Source of the DNA: a virus
IMG/VR virus record: IMGVR_UViG_3300020185_000171
Coordinates: 1-30,874 of that record
Length of the DNA: 30,874 nt
Strand: one strand, 5' to 3'
Made by a program: the position numbers and the translations under genes. Each line of letters begins with the position of its first letter. Position 1 is the stretch's first letter. Positions 8,033-30,874 of this stretch are shown here, in pieces. The notes under the pieces were generated by a model, which was not told where the DNA came from, searched no databases, and saw only the letters and a list, made by a program, of their open reading frames with translations.

Positions 8033-9979
8033 TTATCTAATAATGTCTACTTCAAACTCGTAAGTTACCGGATTTATACATATAACTTCGATGTAAGGTT
8101 TGTTTGTAATTAATTCTGCTGGAATGATGTCAGCTATTTGTATGTCGTATCCTCCGGAAGTTCTAGTATGAATTTTAATATTATTGCCATTCATATCTAT
8201 TGTTTCGAATGAAATTCTAACAATTTGCCCTTCACTCCAAGAATTAATTGAATCATCTAAGTATATATTAAGGTCATCATTCGCAACACTCGTTGATAGT
8301 TTATCGATAAAACTAATTCTATTTGTAAATGGCTTCAACCTGCTCCAAACTCCATATTGACTTAGACCTGCTCCTGAATCATTAATATCGAATTGTGATG
8401 TTTTTGTAATAGAACCAGAATTTGTTTTTGAAGTAAGATCCCATAGAAAAATATTGAGATTGTTATATCCTTTTACGGTATTATTTACTTTAATTTTATT
8501 TGGAACAGACTTATCAATTTCAGTTCCTAATCCATCATATAATACGTCTGTGTTATATTGTAGTTCTACAGGTATTGTTCCGTCAATTAGAGAGTTAAGC
8601 TTATCATGCGCTTTAGTTATCAATTTCAACAGAGAGTCAGAGTCCTGTAGTTGAGCAGAAGTATTCTGGAAGTCGTCTTCCAGCTCTTTAATCCTTGCTT
8701 CTAAATCTTCGGATGTTTCTGAAGATAAAACAAGCCTTTCCATCTCATCTAGTCTCTTAGAGATGTTTCCATATCTATCGTTCGCTCTTATTAAAAGTTC
8801 AGCAGAATTCTCAAGAAGTGTCGTCGTATCCATAAAGAGATCCATTGAAAACGTCGTAAAATCATTTACATTCGTTTCAACTCCAACGTTATCAAGAGAT
8901 GTGTTAAATTTAATATTTAACTTTAATGAGTATGCATTACCATTAAGACCTGTAACCTCGTTTGGCTTATATTTTATTTGTTCATGTATTCTAGAGCCAA
9001 TACCTCCTAAACTCTTAACATCGTCCAAGATTAAAATTCCATATAGGTTAGTTGACCTTCTTGCAGGAATCGAAGAACTATACAGATCATAATATACAAG
9101 GACTGCATTAAATCTAAAATCTTGTCCTTTTTTAGAATAGTCGTTAAAATTCTTAACTGTAGAATCGTTAGTTATTCCTCGATATGATTGCACATCCCAG
9201 TCGATACCAACTGAATTTGTGCCGTTCGTATTAATATCGTAATATGGGCCGGTAGAAGCATTAAATTCATCAACAACCGGATTTAAGTCTAGGCTTGGAT
9301 CTGGATGTGTCTGATCTTCTCTACCTTCGATCCGCTGTGGGTCTGCAAATAATTTATTCGCTGTTGTATTGTAATCGGATGGCTCAAACAATACAGTTGG
9401 GGTTGTTCCTGCTGAAGAGGGTACATTAATATAAACCTCATGATATGCGTTACCCTTGTATGCGATATCGTTCTCAGCATCGATCGTTCCTAAATATTTT
9501 ACAACTCTATCATAAACTTGACCTGTCAGTTCAGAATTAGGATCTTCAGAATAGTTTCCAACGTTACTCTCTGTTGAATCTGCAGATCTGAATCTAATTG
9601 CACCAGTCGAACTTAACCATTTAAAGAAAAGTTTTTCAGCGTCTGACTTATAAAGAACTGGATCAAAATCATCGTCTTGTAATAAAAGCTCTTCTGCGTT
9701 AAGAGCATAACTTTGGAATGTTTGTGCTAAATCAACTCCTGCTCCATTTCCAGAGGGAATATAATTAGCTCCCGAAGTATCTTTTAATAGAGAATAGTTT
9801 ATTGTATTTGATCCGTTTACTGAGGTTGTAAAGTCAGGCAAATCCAATAGTGCATACCTGCTGAACTCAAACTTAAGGTCTGGGTTATTAAAAGCTCTAG
9901 TAATGTCCCTTGCTGCTGAAGCAAAGGCATACATTGTTCCTCCTTGGGGCTGTGGTATTCTAACTAATGGTGTTGCCAT
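8033..9979 (-). CDS. Virion structural protein with central coiled coil, probable fibre or baseplate component
   Basis: 648 residues from an ATG at 9979; the leader is A/T-rich without a Shine-Dalgarno sequence. The N-terminal half has structural-protein composition (many D, N, Y, S). Residues about 400-465 form a predicted coiled coil (RLDEMERLVL, then LEARIKELEDDFQNTSAQL), which fits a trimeric fibre or a connector. The C-terminal 150 residues are beta-rich and could be a receptor-facing or packing domain. It sits one base upstream of the 1202-aa gene and 39 bases downstream of the 207-aa fibre-like gene. No catalytic motif is visible and I did not recognise a named family. Confidence 0.75.
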   Translation of the reverse strand: MATPLVRIPQPQGGTMYAFASAARDITRAFNNPDLKFEFSRYALLDLPDFTTSVNGSNTINYSLLKDTSGANYIPSGNGAGVDLAQTFQSYALNAEELLLQDDDFDPVLYKSDAEKLFFKWLSSTGAIRFRSADSTESNVGNYSEDPNSELTGQVYDRVVKYLGTIDAENDIAYKGNAYHEVYINVPSSAGTTPTVLFEPSDYNTTANKLFADPQRIEGREDQTHPDPSLDLNPVVDEFNASTGPYYDINTNGTNSVGIDWDVQSYRGITNDSTVKNFNDYSKKGQDFRFNAVLVYYDLYSSSIPARRSTNLYGILILDDVKSLGGIGSRIHEQIKYKPNEVTGLNGNAYSLKLNIKFNTSLDNVGVETNVNDFTTFSMDLFMDTTTLLENSAELLIRANDRYGNISKRLDEMERLVLSSETSEDLEARIKELEDDFQNTSAQLQDSDSLLKLITKAHDKLNSLIDGTIPVELQYNTDVLYDGLGTEIDKSVPNKIKVNNTVKGYNNLNIFLWDLTSKTNSGSITKTSQFDINDSGAGLSQYGVWSRLKPFTNRISFIDKLSTSVANDDLNIYLDDSINSWSEGQIVRISFETIDMNGNNIKIHTRTSGGYDIQIADIIPAELITNKPYIEVICINPVTYEFEVDIIR

Positions 9980-10018
9980 CTATATTTTGATTTTATTGTA
10001 AATAATTTTATTAAGTTC

Positions 10019-10642
10019 TTACGCTCCAAGTAAAGATTCTTCTCCTCCACCACCTAATGATGCATTAACCGAAAATGTAATTTCATGAGAACCGATAATA
10101 TACCAAGTGCCGTCCCCGCTAAAATATTTTAACGTAACTGAAGAATTTATACCATCAAGTGTTAAACTTGCAACCGACAATGTACCTAAAATGTTTGTTC
10201 CTCCAGAAGCTTTACAAATAATTGTTACCTCCTGACCATCTCCTCCAGATCCTAATGTAATACTAGCTTGATCTGTTATTAGTGTGTTACCTCCTGAAAG
10301 ATCAGGACTTGCAGCTTGACTTGGTGCGGTTATACTTCCAATATAACCATTCTTTTGTACCATTCTTGAAAATTCAACGTTCTGTGAAAATGTTGAAGAT
10401 ACTCCAAAAACAGCAGCACTCGAGTCAACTTGTAAAAGTTGAGTTGTTAAGTTACCTACAACTGATGATAATGTAAGTTGCTGTGCCGAGATACTATCAA
10501 TTCCCGTAATAGTTGAAGTTACTGGGTCGATAAGAGCAGTAATATCAGCAATCTCATCATTGATTACTGTAAAATTACTATTGATTGTTGTTCTAGATCC
10601 AGATAGTGAATCTGTTCCTAAAATTTCTGTAATGTTTGCCAT
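10019..10642 (-). CDS. Short fibre-like structural protein
   Basis: 207 residues from an ATG at 10642. The N-terminus (DSLSGSRTTINSNFTVINDE) is of a kind often seen at the start of small phage fibre or virion decoration proteins, where a short helical segment leads into a beta-rich shaft. The rest alternates short strands with Gly/Ser/Thr turns and ends in a glycine-rich stretch (SLGGGGEES). There is no enzymatic motif. It lies between the 917-aa gpI-like protein and the 648-aa structural protein, which supports a role as a tail or baseplate appendage. Assignment to a particular fibre is not possible from sequence alone. Confidence 0.65.
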   Translation of the reverse strand: MANITEILGTDSLSGSRTTINSNFTVINDEIADITALIDPVTSTITGIDSISAQQLTLSSVVGNLTTQLLQVDSSAAVFGVSSTFSQNVEFSRMVQKNGYIGSITAPSQAASPDLSGGNTLITDQASITLGSGGDGQEVTIICKASGGTNILGTLSVASLTLDGINSSVTLKYFSGDGTWYIIGSHEITFSVNASLGGGGEESLLGA

Positions 10643-10654
10643 CTTTATATTTAT

Positions 10655-13408
10655 TTAGTTTACTTTTAGCATGTTTCTATGTACTGATTTAGTGTTTCCA
10701 TTAGTATCTTCAACTTCCAATGAGATTGTATACTCTCCAGGATGCTTAAAAAGATATGTTAACACCATATCACCATAATATATATCACTTTTCTCAGGAT
10801 TAGTATTATTTGTAATCTTCCATTGCTTTAATTTCATGCCTGGCATTTTTGAATTCTCTGCACAAAACGTAATATGGGTTGATCGATTAACACTTCTCCA
10901 AGATGTATAAATTTCAGTGTCATCAAACGTAGGGTTATAAGATACTTGGTGTGTTTTACCATTTACTAATCCGTTTGTTATTGAAACTGTCTCGAAATCA
11001 AAAGATCTAGAGTATCTCTTACCTACTGCCATTATATATAATACCTCATCAGCCGGCGGAGTGTCTAACTCTTTAACTACTAGATTATAAACAAATTTAG
11101 ATATTATTGGATCAGTTGAACCATTAAGTTCGTCTGTTATTGACTGCCAACCAGCAACATCGGTAGAACTGGTAGGAGTACTTGATGTTATCGTTAATGA
11201 AGAACTTAATATAGTATTTAAAACAGGATCCATGTGATCTATCGTTAATACTGATCCATTTTGAACGTCTTGTATTAAGAAAGAGGCAGCAATATCTGAA
11301 CCTATTCTTGTTCCGTCCCACCATAATTGATCGGTCCAATTCCAACTAAAATCGCAATTAGACCAACTATATGGCCCAGCAGTTTCACTATACCCAGTTT
11401 CTGAAAAATCATCAGTATATCTAGAAACAGTAGAAAAGTTAATTCCTTCAGATTCATCATGGATATAATTTGCCCTGTCAAGTCCTAAGTACCAACTTGC
11501 TGGAACGTCTTCGAATTGTATATCATTTTGAAATGGAAGATCCCAAACTCCACCGGCGTCTTTCCATGTTATTGATTCTCTATCAGCCCAAGAATTTTTA
11601 CCAATTCTTTTATAAAGACCATACAATTCAATCTCTTTTAGATTAACGTTGATCATGTCCTTTTTAAAATCATAAGATCTATGTCCAAACAGGTCATACG
11701 TTCTCATCTCAACAGAATATGAACCATCATGTGGTAAGAAGATTGGAAACTTTAAATAGTCTGCAATTGGTCCTCTAAAAGTACCTGACCATCCTCTAGG
11801 ACCTGTAACAATCCATTCAATTTCATATACCCATCTTTTCCACCAAGAATTCCAAGTTACTTGTGGATCTATTGCATCTAACCATGTAAATTCAGCCGAA
11901 TCCCATGTTGTATCAAAAGTTTTTTCGCCATCTAATATAATAGGACAACCTACAGGAACGCTTGTACTTCCGTCTATGTCATAATTGAAAGTATCTAGCG
12001 GTTGATCGTAGTATGTCTGATAGAAAAGAGTGATTGCCTCTCTTAGGTCTTCTAATTGTTGTGATGATAGAGTTCCATAGTCCTCAAACGAAGTATTCAA
12101 AATTGATTGTGTATCTTCGTATCCTGTTCCAGGATCAACTAGATCTGTTGGAAGCTGATTCGGATTGTAAACCTTCTTAAGTATTAATGAAACATCCTCT
12201 ACAAAAAGACTTCTATTTATAGGAAATTCTTCATATTTAATATCAATACCTTCGGTTATAAAAGTAATCGGGTTTTGATTGTTCCAAATATTTTGATTCT
12301 TTTGAGCAAAGAAATCACCTTCACCTGTAATATCAACAATTCTTGCGCTCATTGGCAAGAATTCTCTGTGCAGCTTTCTTTTTAATCCATATAGCTTAAT
12401 CAATACCTCTTCTGGGGTAAAGTCAAATACTTCATCTACTTTAGGTATGTCCCACTCGTCAACCTCTCCGTTTGGGGTATTAATCTTATAGACTAAACTA
12501 AATCTGCTTGTCTTTTTAAGGTTACTATTTGGAATTTCAATAGTCATTCCCTTTCTAATAGCCTCTCCATATTTACTTGAATTAGCTACTGGAATTGCTT
12601 GAAGTTTTCCGAAAGAACTGCTTCCTGTATTAATATTTAGCCAATATTCTTTTAGAGTTAGATTATTGTAGCCAAAGAAGTCAATTGCATTTAGTACGGC
12701 TTTATATGTTCCGATAAAAGGCTTAATGTTCGACATCTCTAACAAAAGTTCTCTCCTCTTTTGGTTTAATAGAATATAGTCGGGCGACATTTCAGTAATA
12801 TCGTGCTCTTTAAATAAGATAAAGTCTTCAGCTTCAAGAGATGCTCCAAAGTTTTGCAACAATATTTTTAACCTCTCGTCTTCACCCACGACTTCACCGT
12901 AGACTAGTAGTTTAGCGATGAGTATTTTATCAACACCATCATTTGCATAAACCAGGAGTGTTCTCTGATGCCTTCCTTCGTCTTGAGATGTTAGAGCTAT
13001 GTTTACTTGAACTGCCTCGTTATCTATGCTCGACACTTCTTTTAGGTCGTTTACAGTTCCGGTAGAAACGGATGAATCAACAATATCTATCGATTGACCT
13101 TTCTTTTCATCTATTTTAATAACGCCATTTTCTAATGATGCGCCATACATTAAAATATCTTCACTCTCGTAGATATTAATGTCCCATTCAAATTCAAAAC
13201 GGGTACTTGTATTAGATTCTGAAATTGGCTTATTTAGATATATGTTACTATTCGAAACAACCTCTTCTAAAATAAAAATATTCGCAGACTCATAAAGACC
13301 GGTAGAAACCTCATCTAAATAAATTGAAGCATTCCACACTCCATTTGAATCTTGGACCGCGTTCAAGTTGTATTCTGTGCCTTTAAATATTTTTAGGTTG
13401 TTGTACAT
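10655..13408 (-). CDS. Baseplate protein with gpI-like motif and PKD-like domains
   Basis: 917 residues. The ATG at 13408 shares one base with the TAA of the 90-aa gene. Residues about 218-247 (RRELLLEMSNIKPFIGTYKA, then the motif FFGY) resemble the conserved core of P2 gpI-type tail proteins, where a 'K-G-T' turn precedes a helix ending in a G-Y pair. gpI normally follows gpJ, and this gene follows the gp6/gpJ-like gene after one small gene, so synteny agrees. Residues about 488-590 form a Trp-rich, PKD-like beta domain (GSYSVEMRTYDLFGHRS). The last 80 residues are a second PKD-like domain (GEYTISLEVEDTNGNT). PKD domains are extracellular protein- or glycan-contact modules. The protein may join the baseplate wedge to peripheral fibres; that last point is inference. 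Confidence 0.75.
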   Translation of the reverse strand: MYNNLKIFKGTEYNLNAVQDSNGVWNASIYLDEVSTGLYESANIFILEEVVSNSNIYLNKPISESNTSTRFEFEWDINIYESEDILMYGASLENGVIKIDEKKGQSIDIVDSSVSTGTVNDLKEVSSIDNEAVQVNIALTSQDEGRHQRTLLVYANDGVDKILIAKLLVYGEVVGEDERLKILLQNFGASLEAEDFILFKEHDITEMSPDYILLNQKRRELLLEMSNIKPFIGTYKAVLNAIDFFGYNNLTLKEYWLNINTGSSSFGKLQAIPVANSSKYGEAIRKGMTIEIPNSNLKKTSRFSLVYKINTPNGEVDEWDIPKVDEVFDFTPEEVLIKLYGLKRKLHREFLPMSARIVDITGEGDFFAQKNQNIWNNQNPITFITEGIDIKYEEFPINRSLFVEDVSLILKKVYNPNQLPTDLVDPGTGYEDTQSILNTSFEDYGTLSSQQLEDLREAITLFYQTYYDQPLDTFNYDIDGSTSVPVGCPIILDGEKTFDTTWDSAEFTWLDAIDPQVTWNSWWKRWVYEIEWIVTGPRGWSGTFRGPIADYLKFPIFLPHDGSYSVEMRTYDLFGHRSYDFKKDMINVNLKEIELYGLYKRIGKNSWADRESITWKDAGGVWDLPFQNDIQFEDVPASWYLGLDRANYIHDESEGINFSTVSRYTDDFSETGYSETAGPYSWSNCDFSWNWTDQLWWDGTRIGSDIAASFLIQDVQNGSVLTIDHMDPVLNTILSSSLTITSSTPTSSTDVAGWQSITDELNGSTDPIISKFVYNLVVKELDTPPADEVLYIMAVGKRYSRSFDFETVSITNGLVNGKTHQVSYNPTFDDTEIYTSWRSVNRSTHITFCAENSKMPGMKLKQWKITNNTNPEKSDIYYGDMVLTYLFKHPGEYTISLEVEDTNGNTKSVHRNMLKVN

Positions 13409-13680
13409 TATCTAATGTTTTTGTTATCTTTTTTAACGGTGTAATTTTTCCATTGTTGTAAACTCTTAACCGAATCTAATATGTGTGTTAAATAGTCATT
13501 GAGAAATGAAATAAAATCCGTCATTGTTTGATTCCTTAAGATATGTCTAGACAGGTTATTTTGCATTAGACTATTAGAATAGTCATGCCCAGTGTTTAAT
13601 CTATTATCCTTTCGGGTTTTCGCGCCTGAATAAAGATTCTTTAGTTTATATTTTAATAAGTTCTTAAATAAAGATTCCAT
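13408..13680 (-). CDS. Small hypothetical protein in the baseplate cluster
   Basis: 90 residues. Its ATG at 13680 overlaps the stop of the gp6-like gene by one base, and its own stop overlaps the start of the 917-aa gene, so it is tightly coupled to both. It is basic at the N-terminus (KNLLKYKLKNLYSGAKTRK) and helical at the C-terminus (MTDFISFLNDYLTHILDSV). No recognisable domain, signal peptide or membrane segment. Its position between the gpJ-like and gpI-like genes suggests a small baseplate or assembly factor, but no function can be assigned. Confidence 0.7.
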   Translation of the reverse strand: MESLFKNLLKYKLKNLYSGAKTRKDNRLNTGHDYSNSLMQNNLSRHILRNQTMTDFISFLNDYLTHILDSVKSLQQWKNYTVKKDNKNIR

Positions 13681-15506
13681 TATAGTGCTTTTCTATTTCC
13701 TGCTTGAATTCTAGTGTAAACTGTTCTAGGTACTGGAGTTTCATCAAATGTAACTGAAAGACTTGCCTCTTCATTAATTGCGGGTTCATCTTTGATTTCA
13801 TCGCCTTCTCGATCTTGCCAACCTCCTCTGAAAACTGCAATCTCCTCTTTTTCCATAATAATGTCTCCCCATTGGTCTAGCCCTGCAACGTCATATGGAA
13901 TAGGATCTCCTTCAGCAATATTAACTTTTTCTACCTCTTCTATCTTTTTAAAGAATACGTATTTTTGCTTACCATTACCAATATCTTCAAGAGTTACTGG
14001 TTCTTGAGCTGCAATTGTTGTTGTAACTGACTCATAATAACCAAGTCTCCTTGCAGTTTCTTCGGTTTCACTTCTAAACTGAACGTTAACCGCGTCTACT
14101 CCTTCTACCTCTTCTAAGATATAGACAATATCACTTTTTGGTAATTTATCTCTTCTTGTAATATTTAACATGTAATTTGAAACAGCGCCTCTAATATCAT
14201 TAAATATCTCCTCCTTGCTAAAGCCTTCAAAATATCTAATAGAAATATCGATTGCATATTTACGAATTTTTGGTCTTACGAATTTAACCTCACTAGTCAC
14301 CATCATCTGACCGCTCTCTTGTAGTACTTCATACATTTTGTCATATTCAGTCTGGTCAAAAAACATCTCCTGCTGTGGTATCGAAAAATAGTCTTGATTC
14401 TTCGCAAGTTTCTTATTAATATCTGGAATCGCAAAAATATAGACAATATTATCATCATCAAGATATCCGTCATCGCTGGTATTGTAGGCATCAATATAGG
14501 AGAATATTCCATATCTTGATAGGAAATACTCATAATTATCAGGAGTGGCCAATACAAATGATTTACTAGCAAACGGAGCAATTAGTTTAGTGAATTCAGT
14601 AGATTCAGGCTCAGCTCCCATTTTAGGAGAGCTTGTTACGGTAACTGTCAATAGTTTATTTAAGTCATAAAAGTTACCTGCAGAATCTTCTCCTTCATCA
14701 ATCCACTTAACCTTTAAGTCTTCTGCGTCTTCAATGTTTCCTTTTGCACCGTCACAGACAATATACTCAACTTCAATCGTTGATCCTAGTGGTGGAATTG
14801 CTCCAAAATTATTAGTTCCAAAATAGATGTCAAGTCCTCCACTAATACCAGTCTTTACAATAAAACCTCGGTCTCCTCCGTTCATTTCATATACTGAATT
14901 GAATTTAGTCCATTGTTCTCCATTAACTGAAACTTTTACCATATTATGATCTGTCTTTCCAGTTTGTATATTAAAAGACTGAAAAGACTCTCCAGTCCCA
15001 GTAAGAGTTTGAGTTTCTACCTTACCCTGTACTATAACTGCCTTTAATTGTTCTTTTTGATTTTTGCCTATTCTAAAGTAATCCTTTGATGTTCTTAAGA
15101 TGTAAGACAGTCCATTTGCTTCAAATTTTAATTCTGCATTTGCTGGGATAGTAATTCCGTCTCCGGCTATTTTATTGAAGTCTCCTGATTCTACATTTAG
15201 TCTTATCGATATTTCACCGGTTGCAGAAAAGCCTCTAGTAGGATCATGTCCCGTTAATCTAGCAAGACCATATATTGATTCAGGTTGTTGCGCTGTATAA
15301 ATATTCTGTTCAACTGTCGAATCTTCGACATAGAATAGTATTAATTCACCAATCTCCGAAAGAACTCTTAGTATTTGAGCAAAAGGAGAGGCGTTCGTAA
15401 ACAGCGTATTAGATCTTTCATAAACTCTAGAAATATATGTTCTAGTGTCTTCGAAGATCTGTTGAGCAGTTGCTCTAGTTTTAGTTAAGAATTTTAATTC
15501 AGCCAT
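13680..15506 (-). CDS. Baseplate wedge protein, T4 gp6 / P2 gpJ family
   Basis: 608 residues from an ATG at 15506. The N-terminal 100 residues (ILRVLSEIGELILFYVEDS, then IYGLARLTGHDPTRG) match the pattern of phage gp6/gpJ baseplate proteins, in which an early helical region leads to an 'a..tGh.p..g' turn. About residues 295-335 hold the typical baseplate-J core (MGAEPES...IAPF...ATPDNYEYFL). About 438-480 hold a late core helix and strand (MLNITRRDKLPKSDIVYILE). In T4 the gp6 ring forms the backbone of the baseplate wedges around the hub. The gene lies immediately after the gp25-like gene, as in many contractile tails. The C-terminal tail of about 110 residues is acidic and less family-like. 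Confidence 0.88.
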   Translation of the reverse strand: MAELKFLTKTRATAQQIFEDTRTYISRVYERSNTLFTNASPFAQILRVLSEIGELILFYVEDSTVEQNIYTAQQPESIYGLARLTGHDPTRGFSATGEISIRLNVESGDFNKIAGDGITIPANAELKFEANGLSYILRTSKDYFRIGKNQKEQLKAVIVQGKVETQTLTGTGESFQSFNIQTGKTDHNMVKVSVNGEQWTKFNSVYEMNGGDRGFIVKTGISGGLDIYFGTNNFGAIPPLGSTIEVEYIVCDGAKGNIEDAEDLKVKWIDEGEDSAGNFYDLNKLLTVTVTSSPKMGAEPESTEFTKLIAPFASKSFVLATPDNYEYFLSRYGIFSYIDAYNTSDDGYLDDDNIVYIFAIPDINKKLAKNQDYFSIPQQEMFFDQTEYDKMYEVLQESGQMMVTSEVKFVRPKIRKYAIDISIRYFEGFSKEEIFNDIRGAVSNYMLNITRRDKLPKSDIVYILEEVEGVDAVNVQFRSETEETARRLGYYESVTTTIAAQEPVTLEDIGNGKQKYVFFKKIEEVEKVNIAEGDPIPYDVAGLDQWGDIIMEKEEIAVFRGGWQDREGDEIKDEPAINEEASLSVTFDETPVPRTVYTRIQAGNRKAL

Positions 15507-15522: not shown

Positions 15523-15876
15523 TTATGGAGTCAATGATATTATAAATGTATTATCGACTGTAATGTCTATATATGCCTCATCTCTAATCTCTCCTCTTAC
15601 GAACACAATATCTGTTTTAACTTTATATTTTGAAGACAAGGGGCAATACCTAGAAATTTGAGACTCTATTTCACTTCTCAGTACGCCTTCATTAGCATTC
15701 AATTCATATAACATATCATTCAAACTACACCCAAAGTCAACATCGCCTAACACTTCTCCTTTATTCGTAAAAAGAATAGTTTCAATCTGTGTTAAAAGCT
15801 GCTTAACCTCATCCTTTGTTTGAACCTCAGTTCCGTTAAAGTTTGGATCATCTATGGTTTTTATGTATAACTCCAT
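15523..15876 (-). CDS. Baseplate wedge protein, T4 gp25 / P2 gpW family
   Basis: 117 residues, the usual size for this family, from an ATG at 15876. Residues 24-60 (EVKQLLTQIETILFTNKGEV, then LGDVDFGCSLNDMLYE) carry the signature of gp25-like proteins: a helix, a short 'G E' turn, then a 'DFG..L...LYE' segment. The C-terminal part (VFVRGEIRDEAYIDITVD) is the usual beta sheet. Despite the family's 'lysozyme-like' label, gp25 acts structurally, joining sheath and wedge. It sits 16 bases before the gp6-like gene, the standard gp25-gp6 order of contractile tails and related injection systems. Confidence 0.88.
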   Translation of the reverse strand: MELYIKTIDDPNFNGTEVQTKDEVKQLLTQIETILFTNKGEVLGDVDFGCSLNDMLYELNANEGVLRSEIESQISRYCPLSSKYKVKTDIVFVRGEIRDEAYIDITVDNTFIISLTP

Positions 15877-15892
15877 ATTCTATTTATTACAT

Positions 15893-16747
15893 TTAGCTAT
15901 GGAACATCCAGTCTACACCTTCATCTCCTTTAATTTCTTCCTCTACTTTTTCAAGTTCTTCGTCTCCCATTGACTTAATCGCATCGTAATCAAAGTCAAC
16001 ATTTCCAGGAAGAGCAAACTTAAAGATTCCAAGTTTGGCTCCAAGGGATTGTTTAATTCTAGCGCTTACATATCTAAAAAAGATTTCATCATTGTATAAT
16101 GCACAGTCGCTAATTGTTTCATAAACTTGCAATATTACATCTCCTTTAGGGGTGTCTCCCATAAACTTTAATTCACCTGTTAATTGTGAATATGAGAATG
16201 AAATTGGATTCTCTAGGATCTGCCTAGCCATATCTACAAGTGAGGCATTAACAACATAGTATTGTAACTCTTCTGCGAATTCAGCCGGACCTGACCCTTC
16301 ATAAGCATCTCTAAATAACATTTTATCGATAGAGAAGTCATTTCCTCCTTCAAAGCGAAGATCCATTCCTCCTCCTCCGCCTTGCCATCCGCTTGTTAGA
16401 TCCCAAAGACCAAACACCGAATAGACTTCTCCTGATCCGTCTTCTCTAGCACCTGGTAGGTGAAGAGCTCGGTGATTTTTAAAATATTCAGACGAGAATA
16501 CATCCTTCGGTATGTGATAAAAGTTCTCAGTTACTGAATATTCATATTTCTTATAGAACCATTTTTTAGCTCTTTTAATAGTATTTAAGATTTCTCTTTG
16601 TGGAAGATTTACCGGAACCATACAAGCTCCTGTAATTTCATCTCCAATTTCGTCTAGAAATGCATTAAGACAATTATCACCAAATTCTCTTGGCGATGTT
16701 AAGTCATTATTATTTCCACTTCTGATTTCTCCCATTTTATTATGCAT
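15893..16747 (-). CDS. Hypothetical virion structural protein
   Basis: 284 residues from an ATG at 16747 that overlaps the upstream stop by eight bases. A second ATG at 16735, just beyond that stop and preceded by an A-rich leader, is equally plausible. The N-terminal 80 residues are helical with basic and aromatic residues (IKRAKKWFYKKYEYSVTENF). A glycine run (GWQGGGGGMDL) lies near 120-130. The C-terminal third (FFRYVSARIKQSLGAKLGIF, then FALPGNVDFDYDAI) has a style I associate with unannotated structural proteins in other large phages. It lies between the amidoligase-like gene and the gp25-like gene, so a neck, tail-end or baseplate role is possible. I cannot name a family. Confidence 0.7.
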   Translation of the reverse strand: MHNKMGEIRSGNNNDLTSPREFGDNCLNAFLDEIGDEITGACMVPVNLPQREILNTIKRAKKWFYKKYEYSVTENFYHIPKDVFSSEYFKNHRALHLPGAREDGSGEVYSVFGLWDLTSGWQGGGGGMDLRFEGGNDFSIDKMLFRDAYEGSGPAEFAEELQYYVVNASLVDMARQILENPISFSYSQLTGELKFMGDTPKGDVILQVYETISDCALYNDEIFFRYVSARIKQSLGAKLGIFKFALPGNVDFDYDAIKSMGDEELEKVEEEIKGDEGVDWMFHS

Positions 16748-18050
16748 TTATTTTTTTGCTAACAACCACTTCAGTGTCGTCAAATCTTGTATTATCATCA
16801 ATAAATCCTTCTCTAAAGATTCCTCCTACCATTTTACCCTTAAAGACTCCATCCCTTCCAAAAACATAGCAATTCGTAGCGTCGCAGCTTCCATGAACAT
16901 ATGAAGATTTAATCTTTGATTCGTGTACTTTAGTTCCTTGATAAAGATTACAATTTTCTAAAGTTGAATTTGTGATATTGCATGAATATATGTTTGAATC
17001 AAAGATATTCCCATTTATTTCACAATCAACCAAATCGTAGCCTCTAATCTCATAACAGAGTGGAAATTTACCATCCTTAATTTGAACAGTTCCCAAATCA
17101 GAGTCATAATTAATTATTCCTTCCGTAAGACCTCCAAATATTAGTAGTTGAATCACTCTTTCTTTAATTCTGTCCCAATGTAATTTTATAATAGACTCAG
17201 TCTCTTGTAGGTCTACCATAATATCGATATCTGGAAAGTATTTTTTAATTTCCTTATAGTCTTTTAAAATATTTCGAAATGGAATATTTTTATTTAAGAT
17301 TTTCTTAAGCTCTAGTTTATTTGACTCAGTAAACTCAGTATGATAGCATGCTTTCCACATTTGGATGATAAATCTATCTAACAAATAGAAAACTTGATCT
17401 TTTTTCTTTTCGTAATCTTTGCCTCCAATATATCTAAACTCAAGATAATTCTTTATTTTTTTATCAAAGTTTATCCCGTAATATTTAGTGTTTGGAAAAT
17501 CAAAGTTATTTATCGAAAAAGAACCTTCATTAAAATAAAATGATTCATGTTTAGGCGTAATCCACTTAATAGACTTAGCATATATTGAATTATTTCTGTT
17601 CGGAAACATCTTATACACTTGGTCCTCATTAAATTCAAGAATGAATTTTAAGGTGTTCATTTTAGAAACCATATTCTTATCCTCTAAGTAGTCTTTTTGG
17701 AAAGAAAGGTTTAGGTGTATTGAAGATCTGTCAGTAGTGTAACCGTTTTCGTTGATCCATCCCAGCATCTTTGAAATCATGATTCTGGCATTTCTGTATG
17801 GAATAGGTCCAGTTACTAATTCTATTAGACCTTTCCCGCCGCTCATATCTGGTTCCATTTTAAAGACCTTATCATCAGGCTGGAAATCAGAATGGGCTTT
17901 ATCCTCTAATTGAATCTTACGACCAAGTAGAGTTGAGACTTGTTTTTGAGTCTCTTCTAAGCTATGGTTAGAATAAAACTCAAACTCTACCCCAACTTGT
18001 GATGCGTTGAGAATAGAGTCTGAGTTTGAGTGTCTGTTTAAAGTTTGCAT
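16740..18050 (-). CDS. Amidoligase-like (COOH-NH2 ligase) enzyme fused to a predicted beta-helix
   Basis: 436 residues from an ATG at 18050; a TTG one codon upstream is a less likely start. Residues 19-25 (VGVEFEF), 75-88 (LIELVTGPIPYRNA), 109-117 (SSIHLNLSF, H112) and 189-210 (KYYGINF...YLEFRYIGG, E204 and R206) follow in order the conserved blocks of the amidoligase_2 family, relatives of glutamate-cysteine ligase that make amide bonds using ATP. The acidic residues E22, E24 and E77 are in metal/ATP-binding positions of that fold. From about 335 to 428, short repeats rich in C, N, S and I (DCEINGNIFDSNIYSCNITN) look like a pentapeptide-type or parallel beta-helix. The substrate is unknown. 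The gene heads a baseplate unit behind a GATATATA motif. Family assignment is fairly firm; the modification role is inference. Confidence 0.75.
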   Translation of the reverse strand: MQTLNRHSNSDSILNASQVGVEFEFYSNHSLEETQKQVSTLLGRKIQLEDKAHSDFQPDDKVFKMEPDMSGGKGLIELVTGPIPYRNARIMISKMLGWINENGYTTDRSSIHLNLSFQKDYLEDKNMVSKMNTLKFILEFNEDQVYKMFPNRNNSIYAKSIKWITPKHESFYFNEGSFSINNFDFPNTKYYGINFDKKIKNYLEFRYIGGKDYEKKKDQVFYLLDRFIIQMWKACYHTEFTESNKLELKKILNKNIPFRNILKDYKEIKKYFPDIDIMVDLQETESIIKLHWDRIKERVIQLLIFGGLTEGIINYDSDLGTVQIKDGKFPLCYEIRGYDLVDCEINGNIFDSNIYSCNITNSTLENCNLYQGTKVHESKIKSSYVHGSCDATNCYVFGRDGVFKGKMVGGIFREGFIDDNTRFDDTEVVVSKKINA

Positions 18051-18080
18051 CAATGATTATAATATTATACTTCTGTTTAG

Positions 18081-18107: not shown

Positions 18108-19376
18108 TTATACAGGAAGTTTAAGGAATATCTTTTGAGAGTCCTTATCAATTCTATTAATTTGAACTGTTATCTTGTCTCCAGAATCATAGAGATCCAT
18201 TATATTGTCCTCAAGTTCACTAACATGTAGTAGTCCTACTAATCCTTTATCAATTGTAATAAACAAACCATAGTCTTTCTTAGTTTTTACTGTGGCCTCT
18301 ACATTACATGGAACTTTAAATCTTTTTTCAATATCTTTCCATGGATTATCAATCGTCTCTGCCTTTTGACTTAGAGTAATTTTAGAGTTGCTAATAATGT
18401 CCTTGATCCAAAATTCTACCGGATCTCCAGGTCTAATATCTCTAGCTTTGAATTTAGAAATAGTGTCTTCGTCAAGATCATTTACGTGAATCATACCAGT
18501 TAAGCAATTGTTAAATTCTACAAATACACCGTACTTGGCGGTTCCGGTTACGGATCCTGTCTGTTTTTCTTCAATATTTGCCTTTAATTTTTCAATCTCT
18601 TCAGGAATAAGAGCTTTTAAATAGGCTCGATGTGAAACAACAATGGTTCCTCTTTCGGCAGAGAAAGAAACTGGAACAACATACAATTCTTCATTAATAA
18701 TTGAGTTAAAGTCGTGTAATTTGTTAATTCCTGCTAATGAACCTGGCATAAAGCATTCTACGCCTTGTATATTTACAATATAACCACCGTTTTCGATCAT
18801 ATGAGTTACTTTACCAACCCATGCTGTATTTCCTTCTTCAACACCATCTTGTAAATCTTTGAATACTCTCTGTTTCATTCCTCCGGAAATAGATCCAATA
18901 AAATGATCGTCATGTCCAGTTACTAATACTGAAACAACATCGCCCGCTCTATATTCTTCTAAAACGCTTGCAGGTTCTTTTGAAAGCTTTACGTAAACCA
19001 TCTCTCGATAGTTAACATCAACTGTCATCCATTCTTCACTGATTCCAAATATTTTACCTTCAACAATATCACCTATACTAACTTTAGGTCTTACATTATG
19101 CGTTGTCGAATGTCCATTAAATACATCATATAACTCTTGAGCATAAGATTCTCTTGAGTATACCTTGTCTCCGTTTTGAGTTTTTACATGTGGATTTGGT
19201 TTTCTTGTTTTTGATGGACAAGTGGCTTCATATGCATCCCAGTCGAATTCATCATTAGGGTCCAGCCAATTTTCAATTTTATCAACTGATGGTTCTTTAG
19301 ATGATTTTACAACCGTTTGGTTTGTTGTAGGATTAGGATTTTGGTTCCCAATTCTAGTTCTTTTTTTGTCTGTCAT
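18108..19376 (-). CDS. Phage-encoded S1-domain RNA-binding protein (ribosomal protein S1-like)
   Basis: 422 residues from an ATG at 19376. After a polar, disordered-looking N-terminus of about 95 residues come four S1 (OB-fold) domains: about 98-168 (GDIVEGKIFGISEEWMTVDV), 180-250 (VGKVTHMIENGGYIVNI, then CFMPGSLAG), 270-338 (GSVTGTAKYGVFVEF, GMIHVNDL) and 353-421 (YGLFITI, GLLHVSEL). The second domain's 'GG+.V...G...F+PGSL' and the linker VVSHRAYLKALIPEE are characteristic of bacterial ribosomal protein S1 rather than of single-domain RNases. Bacterial S1 usually has six domains, so this is a shortened relative. S1 binds mRNA leaders and brings them to the 30S subunit. Motifs up- and downstream suggest a separate transcription unit. 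A role in favouring phage late mRNAs is inferred. Confidence 0.9.
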   Translation of the reverse strand: MTDKKRTRIGNQNPNPTTNQTVVKSSKEPSVDKIENWLDPNDEFDWDAYEATCPSKTRKPNPHVKTQNGDKVYSRESYAQELYDVFNGHSTTHNVRPKVSIGDIVEGKIFGISEEWMTVDVNYREMVYVKLSKEPASVLEEYRAGDVVSVLVTGHDDHFIGSISGGMKQRVFKDLQDGVEEGNTAWVGKVTHMIENGGYIVNIQGVECFMPGSLAGINKLHDFNSIINEELYVVPVSFSAERGTIVVSHRAYLKALIPEEIEKLKANIEEKQTGSVTGTAKYGVFVEFNNCLTGMIHVNDLDEDTISKFKARDIRPGDPVEFWIKDIISNSKITLSQKAETIDNPWKDIEKRFKVPCNVEATVKTKKDYGLFITIDKGLVGLLHVSELEDNIMDLYDSGDKITVQINRIDKDSQKIFLKLPV

Positions 19377-20026: not shown

Positions 20027-21041
20027 ATATATCAGATTGTTCTTTGTTTAAACTACTTGCCTCTTCCAGATCAACCTGGTACATAATTTTAAGTACATTA
20101 AATGCATTATCATAATAACTTGCATTTTCGTATGGAATTACATTATATTTAGAAACATTACCCTCAGTTCTAAAATCAGATCTCTTTAAAGTATCTCCAA
20201 TTTCCTCTGCTGTTTTATTTTTATTATCTTCTACTATTTTATCAAACTCAACAGGATCCGATGGTATTTGAATATCGTTAGTTAGGGTTTCGGTTAGTAG
20301 GTTTCCTACCTTAAGTTCAATCCCACTAATTCTTACCCGCATTTCATTAGTTGTATTTCTTAAATCGGCAGCCAATTGTTTTAAATTAAACCTATACTGG
20401 TATAATATAGTAGTTCTATCTATAAGACGGGTTTTAATATCTTGCATTCCGGTTTTGTAATTATAATAACTATAATCTTCCTTAACTTCGTATCTTTCGT
20501 ATCTTCTTCGTGAAGTTATCCAATTTGTTCTTGCGTAGAATTTATCAGGGTTTTTATATGGCTGACACTCTGGGTCTAGTGGTATTATATTTGACTTAAT
20601 TCTTAAATCAGATCCTGGTATTAATTGGTCTTCGACAAACTCACCCTTAAATTTACCAACATCAAGTACTCTTGATGGAAGCTTCCACCTAAAAGACCCT
20701 CTTAATCTCTTTCCAGCATCTTTTAATAAATCAATCATATTTTTAACCTGTTGAATGGGTTCAGATGTTATATTAGTGTTCACCCGTATAAAAATAGAAT
20801 CCCAGTTATATTGATCAATTTCAATTAGTGAGAGCCTTTTTCTTCTATTGTTTCCAGTATCAATTATAATTCCTCCATCATAATAATATGCAAGCGCTTT
20901 TTTAAGATCTTCGATAAATCTATTCTCTTGCGTTGAAAGTCTTTCAAGATAACCGGTCTCATATTCGTAGTCAGTATCTCTTATTCGCGATTCAATAATA
21001 TAAAGGTCTCCCCATTTATCTATTAATTCTTCGATCGTCAT
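20007..21041 (-). CDS. Hypothetical protein of the baseplate hub cluster
   Basis: 344 residues from an ATG at 21041 that shares one base with the stop of the spike gene. It is rich in Tyr, Arg, Asp and Ile. An N-terminal helical part (LSTQENRFIEDLKKALAYYY) is followed by a basic middle (WITSRRRYERYEVKEDYSYY) and helical stretches (FNLKQLAADLRNTTNEMRVR). No catalytic motif, membrane segment or known domain is evident. Tight coupling to the spike and hub genes suggests a baseplate component or assembly factor. It ends in TGA, one of only three non-TAA stops here. Confidence 0.72.
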   Translation of the reverse strand: MTIEELIDKWGDLYIIESRIRDTDYEYETGYLERLSTQENRFIEDLKKALAYYYDGGIIIDTGNNRRKRLSLIEIDQYNWDSIFIRVNTNITSEPIQQVKNMIDLLKDAGKRLRGSFRWKLPSRVLDVGKFKGEFVEDQLIPGSDLRIKSNIIPLDPECQPYKNPDKFYARTNWITSRRRYERYEVKEDYSYYNYKTGMQDIKTRLIDRTTILYQYRFNLKQLAADLRNTTNEMRVRISGIELKVGNLLTETLTNDIQIPSDPVEFDKIVEDNKNKTAEEIGDTLKRSDFRTEGNVSKYNVIPYENASYYDNAFNVLKIMYQVDLEEASSLNKEQSDIYELGRL

Positions 21042-21739
21042 TATCTATCTTTTTGTAAAAACGTATTTCTTGTTAAATCAGCCTTTAATCCTGGAACTGC
21101 GTCTACGGATGTAGGAGGAAGTGGAGGACCACTAGGTCCTACCCCAGTCGGGTGAGTATGCGCTAAGTAATCATCTAGTAGTGTATCTAGCCAAGTTTGT
21201 AGATCTACTCCTCGAACTGCTGGCTGACTGTCATCCGCTCCATCGTCAGTCGCGATGAATATATCACCTGAATTTAAAAATATTTGGCCTTCAGGACTAA
21301 ATCTAATCATCGGAGCCTCCGTATTAGAAGTTCCTGTTGTTATTACAAGACCGTCTTCAACTGAATAATAGACTCTTAAGTTTCTCTCTTCGTCATATAC
21401 TATTGAAATTACGTTGTGTGGTTCTTCTGAATTTTCAAGAACTTCACTCTTCAAGGAATCATTCTGATCAACCTGAAACGAATATTCTGGGTGATATATG
21501 TTTCCATTATCAAATCTAACGGCAACCACGTCTCCAACCCTAGGAACTGCGTGAGCTCCTGGTAGATTGCGATTCATTGGAGAAGCCCATGGAACAGATT
21601 CAACCGGAATTAAGTCAAACTTTCCAAACACTTTAATTTTGCATCTACCATTATTTAGCGGATCTTCATTATCTAAAACCTCACCAAGCCAATGTGTATC
21701 TCTTAAATTATCTTTATTGAGTTCTTTGGTAGTCTCCAT
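21041..21739 (-). CDS. Baseplate central spike protein, gpV / T4 gp5 OB-domain family
   Basis: 232 residues. The ATG at 21739 overlaps the upstream stop. Residues 14-93 form the OB-fold of gp5/gpV/VgrG-type spikes: WLGEVLDNEDPLNNGRCKIK, then PWASPM, GDVVAVRFDNGNIYHPEYS. Residues about 105-165 are short beta strands (VITTGTS, IRFSPEGQIFLNSGDIFI) suited to a trimeric beta-helix. The end (about 183-206) is DTLLDDYLAHTHPTGVGPSG, with H194 and H196 in the HxH arrangement that binds iron at the P2 gpV tip. The T4 gp5 lysozyme domain is absent, so it is a non-enzymatic, membrane-piercing spike. It follows the hub and tail genes, as expected. Confidence 0.88.
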   Translation of the reverse strand: METTKELNKDNLRDTHWLGEVLDNEDPLNNGRCKIKVFGKFDLIPVESVPWASPMNRNLPGAHAVPRVGDVVAVRFDNGNIYHPEYSFQVDQNDSLKSEVLENSEEPHNVISIVYDEERNLRVYYSVEDGLVITTGTSNTEAPMIRFSPEGQIFLNSGDIFIATDDGADDSQPAVRGVDLQTWLDTLLDDYLAHTHPTGVGPSGPPLPPTSVDAVPGLKADLTRNTFLQKDR

Positions 21740-22890
21740 TATTCATATACGTTTTCGTTGATTGGTCCTTCACTGTCAAATGGGACACTGTCATGTACGT
21801 TTCCACCGAGAGGCCCTTCACTATCAAGTGCAACTGCATCATGTATATTTTCGTTGATTGGTCCCTCACTATCAAGTGCAACTGCGTCATATGCCTTTCC
21901 GAGCTCTCCACTTGGAGTTGCACCTCTTCGAGAACTATTACCCCTGATAACATTTGCGATTCCATTAACCGAACCAGCTCTTACGGCGTCTTGTATACTT
22001 GAGAGTGTGCTTGCACCGTGTACATTTCCAAGTAGAAGTTTTGCAGTTAAATTTTCAACAGTTCGGTCAACGGCGCTTCCGACTATAGTTCCAGCTTTTT
22101 CTTTTGCAATATCTCCAAGCATCTTTCCAAAACCACCAGTCTCTTCACTGATAGTTGAGTTAGCATATTCACCATGGGTATGTACGCCTTTCCATTTAAT
22201 TTTAATTGATGGGGCTGCAGGTCCCTCTGGGCTTCTATTAAGATCTGCAAAAATAGAACTTGTAGAATCAGGGTCAAATTCACAATGACTTAACTCTACT
22301 TTAAAATAGGGCTTAACTGATTTTACACTACCGTCACCGCCTAATACGTCAAGTGCTGGGTTAGCTTGATTTGCAGCTAGCGCAGAACTTGCAGTCTTTG
22401 ATGTTGACGTCTTAAATGTTCTTACCTCTGAAACCCAGATATGTAGAGAAAATCTTCTTAAATTTGCAGGTATTACTTCTACCCATCTATTAAAATCATA
22501 TGCCGCTCTTTTGTAAAGGTCCATCATTCCTGAAACAGTAAGTTCTACCGTTTCAAGACATCCTATGTCAATTGCTTTATCTTCTCCCCAATAGGGATCA
22601 GCCATATTACCGTATTGTTTAGCAGTTTCAAGACCTGAAACGCTTTGCCAAAACCAAGGATATTCAGAGTTTACCTTCTTTAAGATTTTAATAAAGTTTT
22701 CGAGGGATTCTGCTCTTTTCGTATCGCCTATTACATTTTTCAAATAAGAGACAGCATCTCCATTTAATAAAGGAGAGTGTTCGGTGTAATAGTCAAACAT
22801 AAAGAAGAACGAAAGATATGTTGGATCGTCATATATCGGATCAAAAATCTTAGTTTTCCTAAAGTCTTTTGTGTTTTTAAAATCTTGCAT
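21739..22890 (-). CDS. Tail/baseplate protein with triple C-terminal 16-residue repeat
   Basis: 383 residues from an ATG at 22890. Residues 20-150 are helical and aromatic (YLSFFFMFDYYTEHSPLLNG; ILKKVNSEYPWFWQSVSGLE; MMDLYKRAAYDFNRWVEVIP). A beta stretch follows at 147-240, including FKVELSHCEFDP and IKIKWKGVHTHGEY. The look is that of inner baseplate or tube-end proteins. Residues 255-315 are small-residue-rich. Residues 334-381 are three tandem copies of a 16-residue unit built on DAVALDSEGPINEN. The gene lies between the hub-like and spike genes, so it probably contacts the tube end or hub. I cannot equate it with a named T4 protein; gp48/gp54-like roles are a guess. Confidence 0.75.
   Translation of the reverse strand: MQDFKNTKDFRKTKIFDPIYDDPTYLSFFFMFDYYTEHSPLLNGDAVSYLKNVIGDTKRAESLENFIKILKKVNSEYPWFWQSVSGLETAKQYGNMADPYWGEDKAIDIGCLETVELTVSGMMDLYKRAAYDFNRWVEVIPANLRRFSLHIWVSEVRTFKTSTSKTASSALAANQANPALDVLGGDGSVKSVKPYFKVELSHCEFDPDSTSSIFADLNRSPEGPAAPSIKIKWKGVHTHGEYANSTISEETGGFGKMLGDIAKEKAGTIVGSAVDRTVENLTAKLLLGNVHGASTLSSIQDAVRAGSVNGIANVIRGNSSRRGATPSGELGKAYDAVALDSEGPINENIHDAVALDSEGPLGGNVHDSVPFDSEGPINENVYE
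21748..21891 (-). repeat. Three tandem 48-bp repeats coding for 16-residue units
   Basis: Within the 3' end of the 383-aa tail gene, three adjacent 48-bp units encode YDAVALDSEGPINENI, HDAVALDSEGPLGGNV and HDSVPFDSEGPINENV. The copies differ at both DNA and protein level, so the array is not brand new, and the DSEGP core is fully kept. Two residues (YE) follow before the stop. Confidence 0.9.
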
Positions 22891-24407: not shown

Positions 24408-24962
24408 TTATGTATTATATTTCTGTCCACCTCGAGTAATGTCATTTATTATCTGCTCGGCAACAGGGTCAGTTTGTGCCTGTTTTCCAAAAATAATCTT
24501 GCCTTCTTTAAAAGCATATGTCTTTTTACCTACTGGAATCACATTTGGTGGCAGTAGATTTTCCTTACCATATTTCTTTTGAAGAGTTTTAATCCTGTTA
24601 GCGTCTTTTTTGCTCAACCTTTTAGTGTCAATAAATTGCTGCTTAACAATATTCTCCTCTATTTCTTTTGGTCTTTTAAATTCTTTAAGATTTGGAGACC
24701 TTGTAGGTATTTTTAATATTTCACCTGACTTAATTGAAAAGGGGTTAGAGATATTATTGTACTTTAGAATAATATCAAGTCCACTAACATCACCGTAATA
24801 TTTTGCCGCTATTAAATCAGGTCTTCCCTCTTCATATGGGCTAACAGTGTGTGCCGACTCAATCAAAGCTACAGTTTCTCTATTTCTAAAAAGAATCGTA
24901 GGTATAGTTAGCAACAGCTTAGTACCGTCGTTTATCTTATTTACTATTGTTCTTAAATCCAT
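24408..24962 (-). CDS. LysM-domain baseplate protein, T4 gp53-like
   Basis: 184 residues from an ATG at 24962. Residues about 48-87 (DLIAAKYYGDVSGLDIILKY, then NNISNPFSIKSGEILKIPT) are a LysM domain of the kind used structurally in gp53-like and related baseplate proteins, with the conserved 'YYGD...L...N...P..I..G..L.IP' pattern. The second half is basic and probably helical (KRPKEIEENIVKQQFIDTKR) with a short C-terminal tail. In contractile tails such proteins clamp the wedge and hub; peptidoglycan binding is the other known LysM role. It is separated by six bases from the upstream 606-aa gene and two from the hub gene, so it is part of the same unit. Confidence 0.8.
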   Translation of the reverse strand: MDLRTIVNKINDGTKLLLTIPTILFRNRETVALIESAHTVSPYEEGRPDLIAAKYYGDVSGLDIILKYNNISNPFSIKSGEILKIPTRSPNLKEFKRPKEIEENIVKQQFIDTKRLSKKDANRIKTLQKKYGKENLLPPNVIPVGKKTYAFKEGKIIFGKQAQTDPVAEQIINDITRGGQKYNT

Positions 24963-29127: not shown

Positions 29128-29331
29128 TTACCGAGTAGATTCAATACGGTTGCTCTCATATTCTTTCTCAATGAATTGTTTAATGAATTCAGAAGAATCT
29201 TCAGGTCCGATTATTGCATCGCTTTTAGCATATCTTCTAACCCAGTGTTTTGCGAACTCTTCATTTCCATCCTTTAATAGCTGCTCCTTGAGTCTATCAA
29301 GGTCAGGTAGCATTAGTTTATTAAATCCCAT
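29128..29331 (-). CDS. Small hypothetical protein
   Basis: 67 residues from an ATG at 29331 that overlaps the helicase stop by one base, so it is translationally coupled to it. Helical and charged throughout (LDRLKEQLLKDGNEEFAKHW; SEFIKQFIEKEYESNRIEST). No recognised domain. The close coupling is the main evidence that it is real. Confidence 0.6.
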   Translation of the reverse strand: MGFNKLMLPDLDRLKEQLLKDGNEEFAKHWVRRYAKSDAIIGPEDSSEFIKQFIEKEYESNRIESTR

Positions 29332-30874
29332 TATCTTATTGTTTTAACTCTTTCAGTGAATGTTGGTGGAAATAGTTCTGATTTATTTATCAGATTCATA
29401 AAACTACCATCTATAATATATGTAATTGCCCAATCTGTTTCGCTTCTTACACTTCTTCCAACTCCCTGCATGATAGTAATTCCAGTCTTCCAATCATACC
29501 AACCTGGCATTTTTTCCATCTTTGCCTTAATGAGAGGGTCTCTTAAGTTTGGGTATGGAACTTTAAAAAAGACTTGAAATCTACTGATATCGTCCTTTAA
29601 GTCAAGCCCTTCTAAAAGAGATGGGCCCATAAATACAGCATCTTCCTTTTGTTTAAATAGTTCTAATAGATCTCCTTTCTGTTTAGAATTCTCATAGTCC
29701 ATTAATCTAAACGTATGCTTGCTGTTGCTCTTAATATAATTTGTAAACTCATAGGATCCTGTATGGATTATTCCACGCTGTCCTTTGTGCTTACTAATGA
29801 TCTTGTCAAGTATTTCGACAACCTTCGGTAAACTCTTCTCTTTGTGTCGATATGATAACTTATGCTTGTTAACAAAGATAACAGGTGACTTCTCGTAATT
29901 AAAGGCATTGTCTAATCTGATAAACTTAGCACTTTTAATTCCCATCACCTTTGCATATTCTCTTGGTCCTCCAATTGTAGCGCTCATAAAGACTTTAAAT
30001 CCAGCTTGGGCATGGAGATACTTTTGAATCATAATCGCCTCTTCAGTACACATAAATTTAACCTCATCATTTCGCTGATCCCAAACCATTGATTCAATTC
30101 CAACCTCTCTTATTAATTTAGTGTAGTCCTCGATCTTACAATGAATGTCCTTGATTCTATCAAATCTTCCAAATGCCTTCTTCCAATTAGGAGTCATCGT
30201 CTTCTCATTGAATTGGCCAAACATCCGCTTAACAATATTTTCAGCAGCCGGTCTACTTGCAAGATATTGAACAAGTATTTTCTCCAATTCTTTTAGTTTT
30301 CCAAGAAGTTGATTACGATCCTGGACTCTAATTAGGTCCTGAACAATGTCGTTTAAATAGGCCTTACTTATTGAAGGCGCCTCTACTCCTGATTTAATTA
30401 AAAAGTTAGATTGAGCACTTAACAGGTCAGGAAGGAAATTATCTACCTGAGGAGAAAAATGATTTTGTACAATATCGTCAATCTTATGCGCTTCATCAAA
30501 AAATACAAAGTCTCTCTTTTTAAAAGGAATAGGACGTTCACCAGCCTCCATCTTTGGAGCAACATAGTTTCTTTGAATTAACCAGAATGCATAGTTAAGA
30601 ACTGTGATTGGTGAATCAATAGCCCTTCCTCTTAGTTGCAAATATTCACAAGTATTAGCGCAGTCAAGTTTTGCCATTGCCTGATCGTAGCCCATATTTC
30701 TCATTCGGCATTCTCCAAGAGAAAATGGAAGACCATTAACATGACAATTATAATTATCAATACCTTTAATTGAAGGCCATCTCAGTCTTAGTCTATTAAT
30801 ATCAGACTCATATTGATCCTGTAGTGAAATATCAGAAGTAATCAAATATCCCTTCTTTCCAAGCTCTTTTAGGA
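29331..30874 (-). CDS. XPD/DinG-like superfamily 2 helicase with Fe-S cysteines (N-terminus outside window)
   Basis: 514 residues are visible and the frame stays open to the right edge; a TTG at 30845 is an internal Leu (GYLITSDISLQDQY), not the start. The nucleotide-binding Walker A motif must lie outside the window. Counting from that Leu, cysteines at 34, 46, 62 and 66 have the four-Cys spacing of an iron-sulfur cluster as in XPD and DinG. FFDEAHKIDDI at about 115-125 is helicase motif II (DEAH). MSATIGG is motif III. MQGVGRSVRSE near the C-terminus is motif VI with the arginine finger. Such helicases unwind DNA 5' to 3' in repair or replication. It probably belongs to an earlier-expressed unit than the tail genes. 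Confidence 0.85.
   Translation of the reverse strand, partial: LKELGKKGYLITSDISLQDQYESDINRLRLRWPSIKGIDNYNCHVNGLPFSLGECRMRNMGYDQAMAKLDCANTCEYLQLRGRAIDSPITVLNYAFWLIQRNYVAPKMEAGERPIPFKKRDFVFFDEAHKIDDIVQNHFSPQVDNFLPDLLSAQSNFLIKSGVEAPSISKAYLNDIVQDLIRVQDRNQLLGKLKELEKILVQYLASRPAAENIVKRMFGQFNEKTMTPNWKKAFGRFDRIKDIHCKIEDYTKLIREVGIESMVWDQRNDEVKFMCTEEAIMIQKYLHAQAGFKVFMSATIGGPREYAKVMGIKSAKFIRLDNAFNYEKSPVIFVNKHKLSYRHKEKSLPKVVEILDKIISKHKGQRGIIHTGSYEFTNYIKSNSKHTFRLMDYENSKQKGDLLELFKQKEDAVFMGPSLLEGLDLKDDISRFQVFFKVPYPNLRDPLIKAKMEKMPGWYDWKTGITIMQGVGRSVRSETDWAITYIIDGSFMNLINKSELFPPTFTERVKTIR

Follow-up and report, generated by a model that had tools for sequence, protein, structure and literature searches.

Why should a virus carry, among the genes for its tail, one whose product resembles an ATP-dependent amide-bond-forming enzyme? 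The question is raised by IMG/VR virus record IMGVR_UViG_3300020185_000171, the 30,874 nucleotides of which were analyzed as a whole and are referred to here as the window. Pfam and PHROG scans showed that the minus strand of this 30.9-kb record encodes a T4-like tail module. The genes surrounding the putative ligase gene are as follows.

13680 to 15506, minus strand: gp6-like baseplate wedge protein (phrog_219, 7.1e-35)
15523 to 15876, minus strand: gp25-like baseplate wedge protein (PF04965, 8.7e-6, just below its cut-off; phrog_261, 5.4e-6)
15893 to 16747, minus strand: head-tail adaptor (neck)-like protein (phrog_211, 3.8e-9)
16740 to 18050, minus strand: amidoligase-beta-solenoid coding sequence, 436 residues (ATG at 18050, stop codon at 16740 to 16742)
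18108 to 19376, minus strand: RNA-binding protein with three S1 domains (Pfam S1, 2.1e-22, three stretches)
21041 to 21739, minus strand: gp5-like baseplate OB protein (PF04717, 6.6e-6; phrog_430, 9.5e-11)

The open reading frame of the ligase gene extends from 16740 to 18053 on the minus strand, and the ATG at 18050 agrees with the starts of the homologues. A reading of the DNA made from the sequence only had placed this gene in a baseplate operon, directly upstream of gp25- and gp6-like genes. The operon location was borne out by loci selected through gp6 and by a census of 151 loci (see below). Direct adjacency was not, since the head-tail-adaptor-like gene, the start of which overlaps the 3' end of the ligase gene by 8 bases, intervenes and is followed by gp25 and then gp6. 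A T4-type late promoter upstream of the ligase gene was considered and dropped, because TATAAATA and TATAAATC were no commoner than in shuffled sequence.

Several other features of the module were recorded. The gene of the S1-domain protein immediately precedes the ligase gene, though its neighbors are tail genes. The product of the gene at 21739 to 22890 contains three near-repeats of the type DAVALDSEGPINENIH in its C-terminal part. A LysM-domain protein, possibly gp53-like (24408 to 24962), is kept beside hub genes in related phages, in which a 917-residue protein that carries a PKD-like domain at its C terminus and weakly matches Tail_P2_I (10655 to 13408 in the window) follows gp6. A helicase gene of the DEAD_2/Helicase_C_2 type (29331 to 30845) marks the edge of the tail module.

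Fold and family of the ligase-solenoid protein

The domains and motifs of the protein, with the conservation of the motifs in an alignment of 72 family members (mean column identity, 46%), are as follows.

17313 to 18029, minus strand: glutamine synthetase (GS)/amidoligase-fold catalytic domain, about residues 8 to 246 (AlphaFold2, VIA-align, hhalign)
17979 to 17993, minus strand: motif 1, G20-V-E22-F-E24 (GxExE, predicted metal ligands), invariant in 72 of 72 sequences and in >97% of 196 homologues
17811 to 17849, minus strand: motif 2, residues 68 to 80, D68-x-S70...E77-x-x-T80, with D68, S70, E77, and T80 in 72 of 72
17703 to 17717, minus strand: motif 3, H112-x-N114-x-S116, in 72 of 72
17433 to 17486, minus strand: motif 4, residues 189 to 206, K189-Y-Y-G-x-N194...E204-F-R206, with K189, Y190, N194, E204, and R206 in 72 of 72
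16743 to 17129, minus strand: right-handed beta-solenoid, residues 308 to 436, pentapeptide-like (domain model, fold matches)

The window protein taken alone gave no amidoligase match in the Pfam or PHROG scans. Its membership of Amidoligase_2 (PF12224) is therefore by family: PF12224 matched 27 of the 72 members at an E value of 0.1 or better (best, 1.3e-8), one relative (L032) scored 30.4 bits against a cut-off of 22, and the relative from Agrobacterium phage Atu_ph07 was also above the cut-off. An unnamed PHROG (phrog_33777) was matched by 13 members and the PHROG named amidoligase enzyme by one. Profile-profile comparison by hhalign with 12 annotated phage amidoligases gave a probability of 96.2% (P = 2.5e-9) with all four motif blocks in register, and reversed and column-shuffled controls gave 0.5% or less. 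A sequence search of the PDB with the family profile returned mainly pentapeptide-type proteins and no ligase.

The AlphaFold2 model of the window protein had a mean pLDDT of 91.2. The best 50 matches of this model in VIA-align consisted entirely of glutamine synthetases and GS-like enzymes (Z of 11.4 to 10.3), the best of them superimposing 181 residues, within residues 8 to 240 of the model, with an rmsd of 3.3. Foldseek matches in the PDB were weak (best E value, 1.8e-3), and glutamate-cysteine ligases were listed among them, weakly. In BFVD, phage proteins named amidoligase matched, including that of Atu_ph07, the top entry being an uncharacterized full-length match. Amidoligase-like proteins of similar fold were also seen there in two giant eukaryotic viruses, Catovirus and Hyperionvirus (A0A1V0S9H8 and A0A3G5ADB8_2). 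The amidoligase- or GS-like fold proposed from the letters was thus upheld by the PF12224 matches of relatives, by hhalign with its null controls, and by AlphaFold2 with VIA-align, and the profile and structure comparisons place a ligase fold with conserved motif residues in a confident model. The order of motifs within the first ~330 residues was as described. The predicted ligase fold covers about residues 8 to 245 and is joined to the solenoid by a helical linker reaching about residue 306. These analyses confirmed, at the level of the predicted structure, that the window gene encodes a divergent Amidoligase_2 domain of the GS/glutamate-cysteine-ligase superfamily joined to a beta-solenoid.

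All four motif blocks named in the reading of the sequence were present and correspond to the invariant columns of the 72-sequence alignment (G20/E22/E24, D68/S70/E77/T80, H112/N114/S116, K189-Y190-G192-N194, and E204/R206). The acids, His, and Arg of the motifs were found in about 97 to 99% of 196 distinct homologues, fragments being counted as absent, and retention of the catalytic residues extended down to about 30% identity. Motif 2 aligned with D66, S68, and E81 of known amidoligases, motif 3 with H117/H119 in the alignment of these enzymes, and motif 4 with their RY..NL..IEFR. We take E22/E24, E77, H112, and E204/R206 to be the counterparts of the GS residues that bind metal and phosphate (E129/E131, E220, H269, and E357/R359), a mapping drawn from known GS residues, not from an extracted structural superposition. 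From the chemistry of the family and the conservation of these residues, ATP-dependent formation of amide bonds would be expected.

The C-terminal domain is, according to the models, a right-handed solenoid with a pentapeptide-like sequence. Modeled alone from 63 sequences, it was a beta-solenoid from end to end (pLDDT of 95.7), with conserved cap residues (G409-G410 and R413). A C-terminal beta-helix had been predicted; the fold was as predicted and the length was not, the domain comprising about 129 residues (308 to 436) instead of ~95. The fusion to a beta-helix was thus supported. Among the pentapeptide-repeat models (PF00805/PF13599), Pentapeptide_4 matched 39 of the 72 members at an E value of 0.1 or better; the best score listed was 26.8 bits against a curated cut-off of 38 bits. 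The nearest solved folds were mixed (Z of 8 to 10) and included Ag43-type and synthetic pentapeptide-like solenoids, AlbG, MfpA, NP275/276, and pectate lyases. A role of the solenoid as a DNA mimic, as for MfpA and Qnr, was considered and not supported, the domain being only mildly acidic (about -3.6 on average).

Distribution and linkage to tail genes

A search of viral contigs for relatives yielded at least 547 homologous stretches. Six megaphage records of 462 to 735 kb carry relatives, two of which (LR756501 and LR756503) gave identical matches, and four of these megaphages (634 to 735 kb) have been assigned to the Mahaphages, their hosts being predicted to be Bacteroidetes (PMC7162821). 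Among 80 loci picked by gp6 alone, 72 contained the ligase gene. Of the remaining eight, four lie on contigs that end before the expected site, one (L247) is on the same contig as another locus (L189), with the copy further upstream, and three (L243, L244, and L263) have no ligase gene in the available sequence. A tail gene was present within 5 kb in 146 of 151 distinct ligase loci, and the neck gene lay no more than 1.5 kb away, on the same strand, in 113; within 5 kb it was found in 120. Gene order and orientation are altered in the megaphage clade, where the ligase gene still lies beside gp5-, LysM-, and hub-like genes or beside neck and gp25 genes. Across a wide group of huge T4-like phages, represented by hundreds of contigs, the ligase gene belongs to the core of the tail module.

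Distant relatives in Atu_ph07 and Salicola phage SCTP-2 lie outside the gp25-gp6 block. The Atu_ph07 relative (L038:7524-9026; AUZ94978.1) adjoins the portal gene and is probably gp196, counting from the portal gp198. The cluster of CDS 170 to 215 of this phage, which contains that place, is rich in virion proteins identified by mass spectrometry (PMC6102473). In SCTP-2, the adjacent genes 125 and 124 (L039:6924-8741 and 8741-10684) both match the ligase profile; the Asp of motif 2 differs in both, and E22/E24, H112, and E204/R206 are kept. A direct cellular origin of the gene was also considered and set aside: relatives occurred on only two bacterial MAG contigs, one of which (L193) carries neck, gp25, and gp6 genes and is therefore phage DNA in a bin.

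The S1-domain gene lies on the same strand within 1.5 kb of the ligase gene in 116 of the 151 distinct loci, and phage S1-domain proteins have been proposed to redirect translation (PMC7162821). The two proteins might accordingly act together in modifying ribosomal or translation-factor proteins in favor of late phage mRNAs. This explanation appears highly improbable, since the ligase gene of the megaphage clade lies near tail genes in loci devoid of an S1 gene, which makes the tail module its constant partner.

The place among tail genes could also reflect late expression only, the enzyme modifying host peptidoglycan peptides or, in the infected cell, producing a small amide, with a block to superinfection as one possible purpose. 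Such an envelope or metabolite enzyme would be like the phage amidoligases of the phiEco32/LUZ24 type. Phage amidoligases already known from this Pfam family mostly sit with genes for COOH-NH2 ligase, gamma-glutamyl cyclotransferase, glutamine amidotransferase, or ATP-grasp enzymes, and a role in cell-wall modification has been proposed for them (PMC11945000 and PMC10580990, citing Iyer 2009). No such partner (COOH-NH2 ligase, GATase, GGCT, or ATP-grasp) was present among the scanned genes of the window, the search for COOH-NH2 ligase being run without a positive control, and GATase_6 was found in 0 of 11 phage records, all 14 control genomes being positive. A gene of the gamma-glutamyl cyclotransferase family did occur in 4 of the 11 records (the megaphage records W02 to W04 and G002), away from the ligase gene. 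In addition, the tail-gene linkage survives rearrangement across families about 32% identical, none of the 12 amidoligases in the alignment of known members showed a beta-solenoid fusion, and selected copies without an active site, described below, fit a metabolic enzyme poorly. We therefore regard an envelope or metabolite enzyme as unlikely.

Copies without the catalytic residues

Two full-length copies at the same place in the operon (L286:7496-8794 and L291:7383-8762), 30 to 31% identical to the window protein, lack E22, D68, E77, H112, and E204; they represent two lineages, both from metagenome assemblies. Residue losses in these copies were enriched at motif positions (Fisher P values of 0.028 and 0.006, the motif grouping having been chosen after the alignment had been seen). 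Invariant residues outside the active site (P150, R152, E142, G209, G210, and N314) were retained. The L286 type was found in three contigs, and two copies of this type differed by 52 synonymous and 9 nonsynonymous changes (dN/dS of 0.038). The L286-type copy is thus under strong purifying selection. No second ligase copy was found in the 161-kb L286-type contig, which may be incomplete.

A single origin of the two copies was considered and rejected: the ligase tree grouped them (SH-aLRT of 95), but the gp6 tree rejected L286 plus L291 as a single clade (p-AU of 0.0004). This discordance implies that the active site was lost twice or that an inactive gene moved; one loss followed by transfer of the inactive gene is possible. 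Retention of these copies in the same operon indicates that catalysis is not the sole job of the protein, and purifying selection on a copy devoid of the active site points to a noncatalytic role. These observations suggest that the protein also helps to build the tail, beyond catalysis.

Taken to its limit, this argument would make the protein a purely structural one, the amidoligase fold serving as a tail-assembly factor that binds nucleotide or metal for stability. The linkage to tail genes, the two lineages without catalytic residues, one of them under purifying selection, and the invariant residues kept even there would all be accommodated. We nevertheless consider a purely structural protein quite unlikely, because the catalytic acids, His, and Arg, needless for a scaffold, are present in about 97 to 99% of the 196 homologues.

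Proposed role and relation to known systems

We favor, with a probability of about one in two, an ATP-dependent ligase whose target during assembly is a protein of the tail or virion and which has an additional structural role through its solenoid. The enzyme would be made together with the neck and baseplate wedge proteins, and the solenoid would dock it onto a nascent tail, neck, or baseplate component. The N-terminal domain would bind ATP and metal through E22, E24, E77, H112, E204, and R206; a carboxylate would be phosphorylated and attacked by an amine, so that a protein of the tail or virion would acquire an amide bond. This bond may attach an extra amino acid or link subunits as an isopeptide, and the substrate is probably a co-expressed neck or baseplate protein. 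The structural or assembly role in the tail would be independent of catalysis, which could explain how two lineages lost the active site and kept the protein. The reading of the sequence had suggested a virion or cell-envelope peptide as the target; the data lean to a role in tail assembly rather than in envelope modification because of the constant tail linkage, the lack of adjacent envelope-module partners, and the selected inactive copies. Against a tail-protein substrate, operon position alone is no proof of substrate, and the T4 baseplate, with its gp25 and gp6, is to our knowledge built without such an enzyme. More tentatively, the GS-fold ligase may be an integral bifunctional part of tail assembly that carries out isopeptide modification or cross-linking of tail proteins and has a second, structural role. 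If so, cross-linking of a phage tail through enzyme-made amide bonds would represent a new way in which virions mature.

The enzyme family is already known, and phage genes are often annotated as amidoligases. The window protein belongs to the same family as the Amidoligase_2 proteins of Porphyromonas, Bacillus, Arthrobacter, Pseudomonas (PaP3/O4), and Salinivibrio (CW02) phages, with which it shares, in order, GxExE, D-S...E, H, R/K-Y..N, and E-F-R. HxH of the known enzymes is replaced by HxN in the window family, and conserved Trp and Cys by Phe and Ala. Unlike known phage amidoligases, the window family has a fused beta-solenoid, is encoded in a tail operon, and lacks the usual partners next to its gene; the adjacent partner genes of the phiEco32/LUZ24-type module are absent from the scanned window genes, GGCT being nonadjacent in the four records that have it. 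A protein of an uncultured Caudovirales phage (A0A6J5PQ40 in BFVD) is a full-length structural match (TM of 0.89, 25% identity) and is uncharacterized. In our survey of the literature, coverage of which was partial, we found no report of the solenoid fusion as a core huge-phage tail-operon gene or of the pseudoenzymes, and a survey of jumbo phages contains the word amidoligase in a reference title only (PMC7824862). The context, the fusion, and the pseudoenzyme forms thus look new.

The predicted fold is shared with the catalytic domain of glutamine synthetase, whereas sequence identity is 10 to 15% and the N-terminal domain of GS was not seen in the window protein. Pup ligase PafA and related GS-fold ligases, which join a peptide to a protein lysine, provide a precedent for the proposed reaction; the likeness to PafA is one of fold, and membership of that group is not claimed. 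The C-terminal domain resembles MfpA, AlbG, and Qnr in its right-handed beta-solenoid and pentapeptide-like sequence but is short, scores below the Pfam cut-off, is fused to a ligase, and lies equally near the pectate-lyase and Ag43 solenoids.

Amidoligases are widespread in phages, and no tested function was found for them in the literature surveyed. Linkage to the tail module, seen in hundreds of contigs of huge phages, limits the candidate substrates to a few co-encoded proteins, for which the natural versions without an active site offer built-in controls. Amide bonds in virion assembly have so far been mainly self-catalyzed capsid cross-links, as in HK97; a tail-protein substrate, if confirmed, would add amide bonds made by an enzyme.
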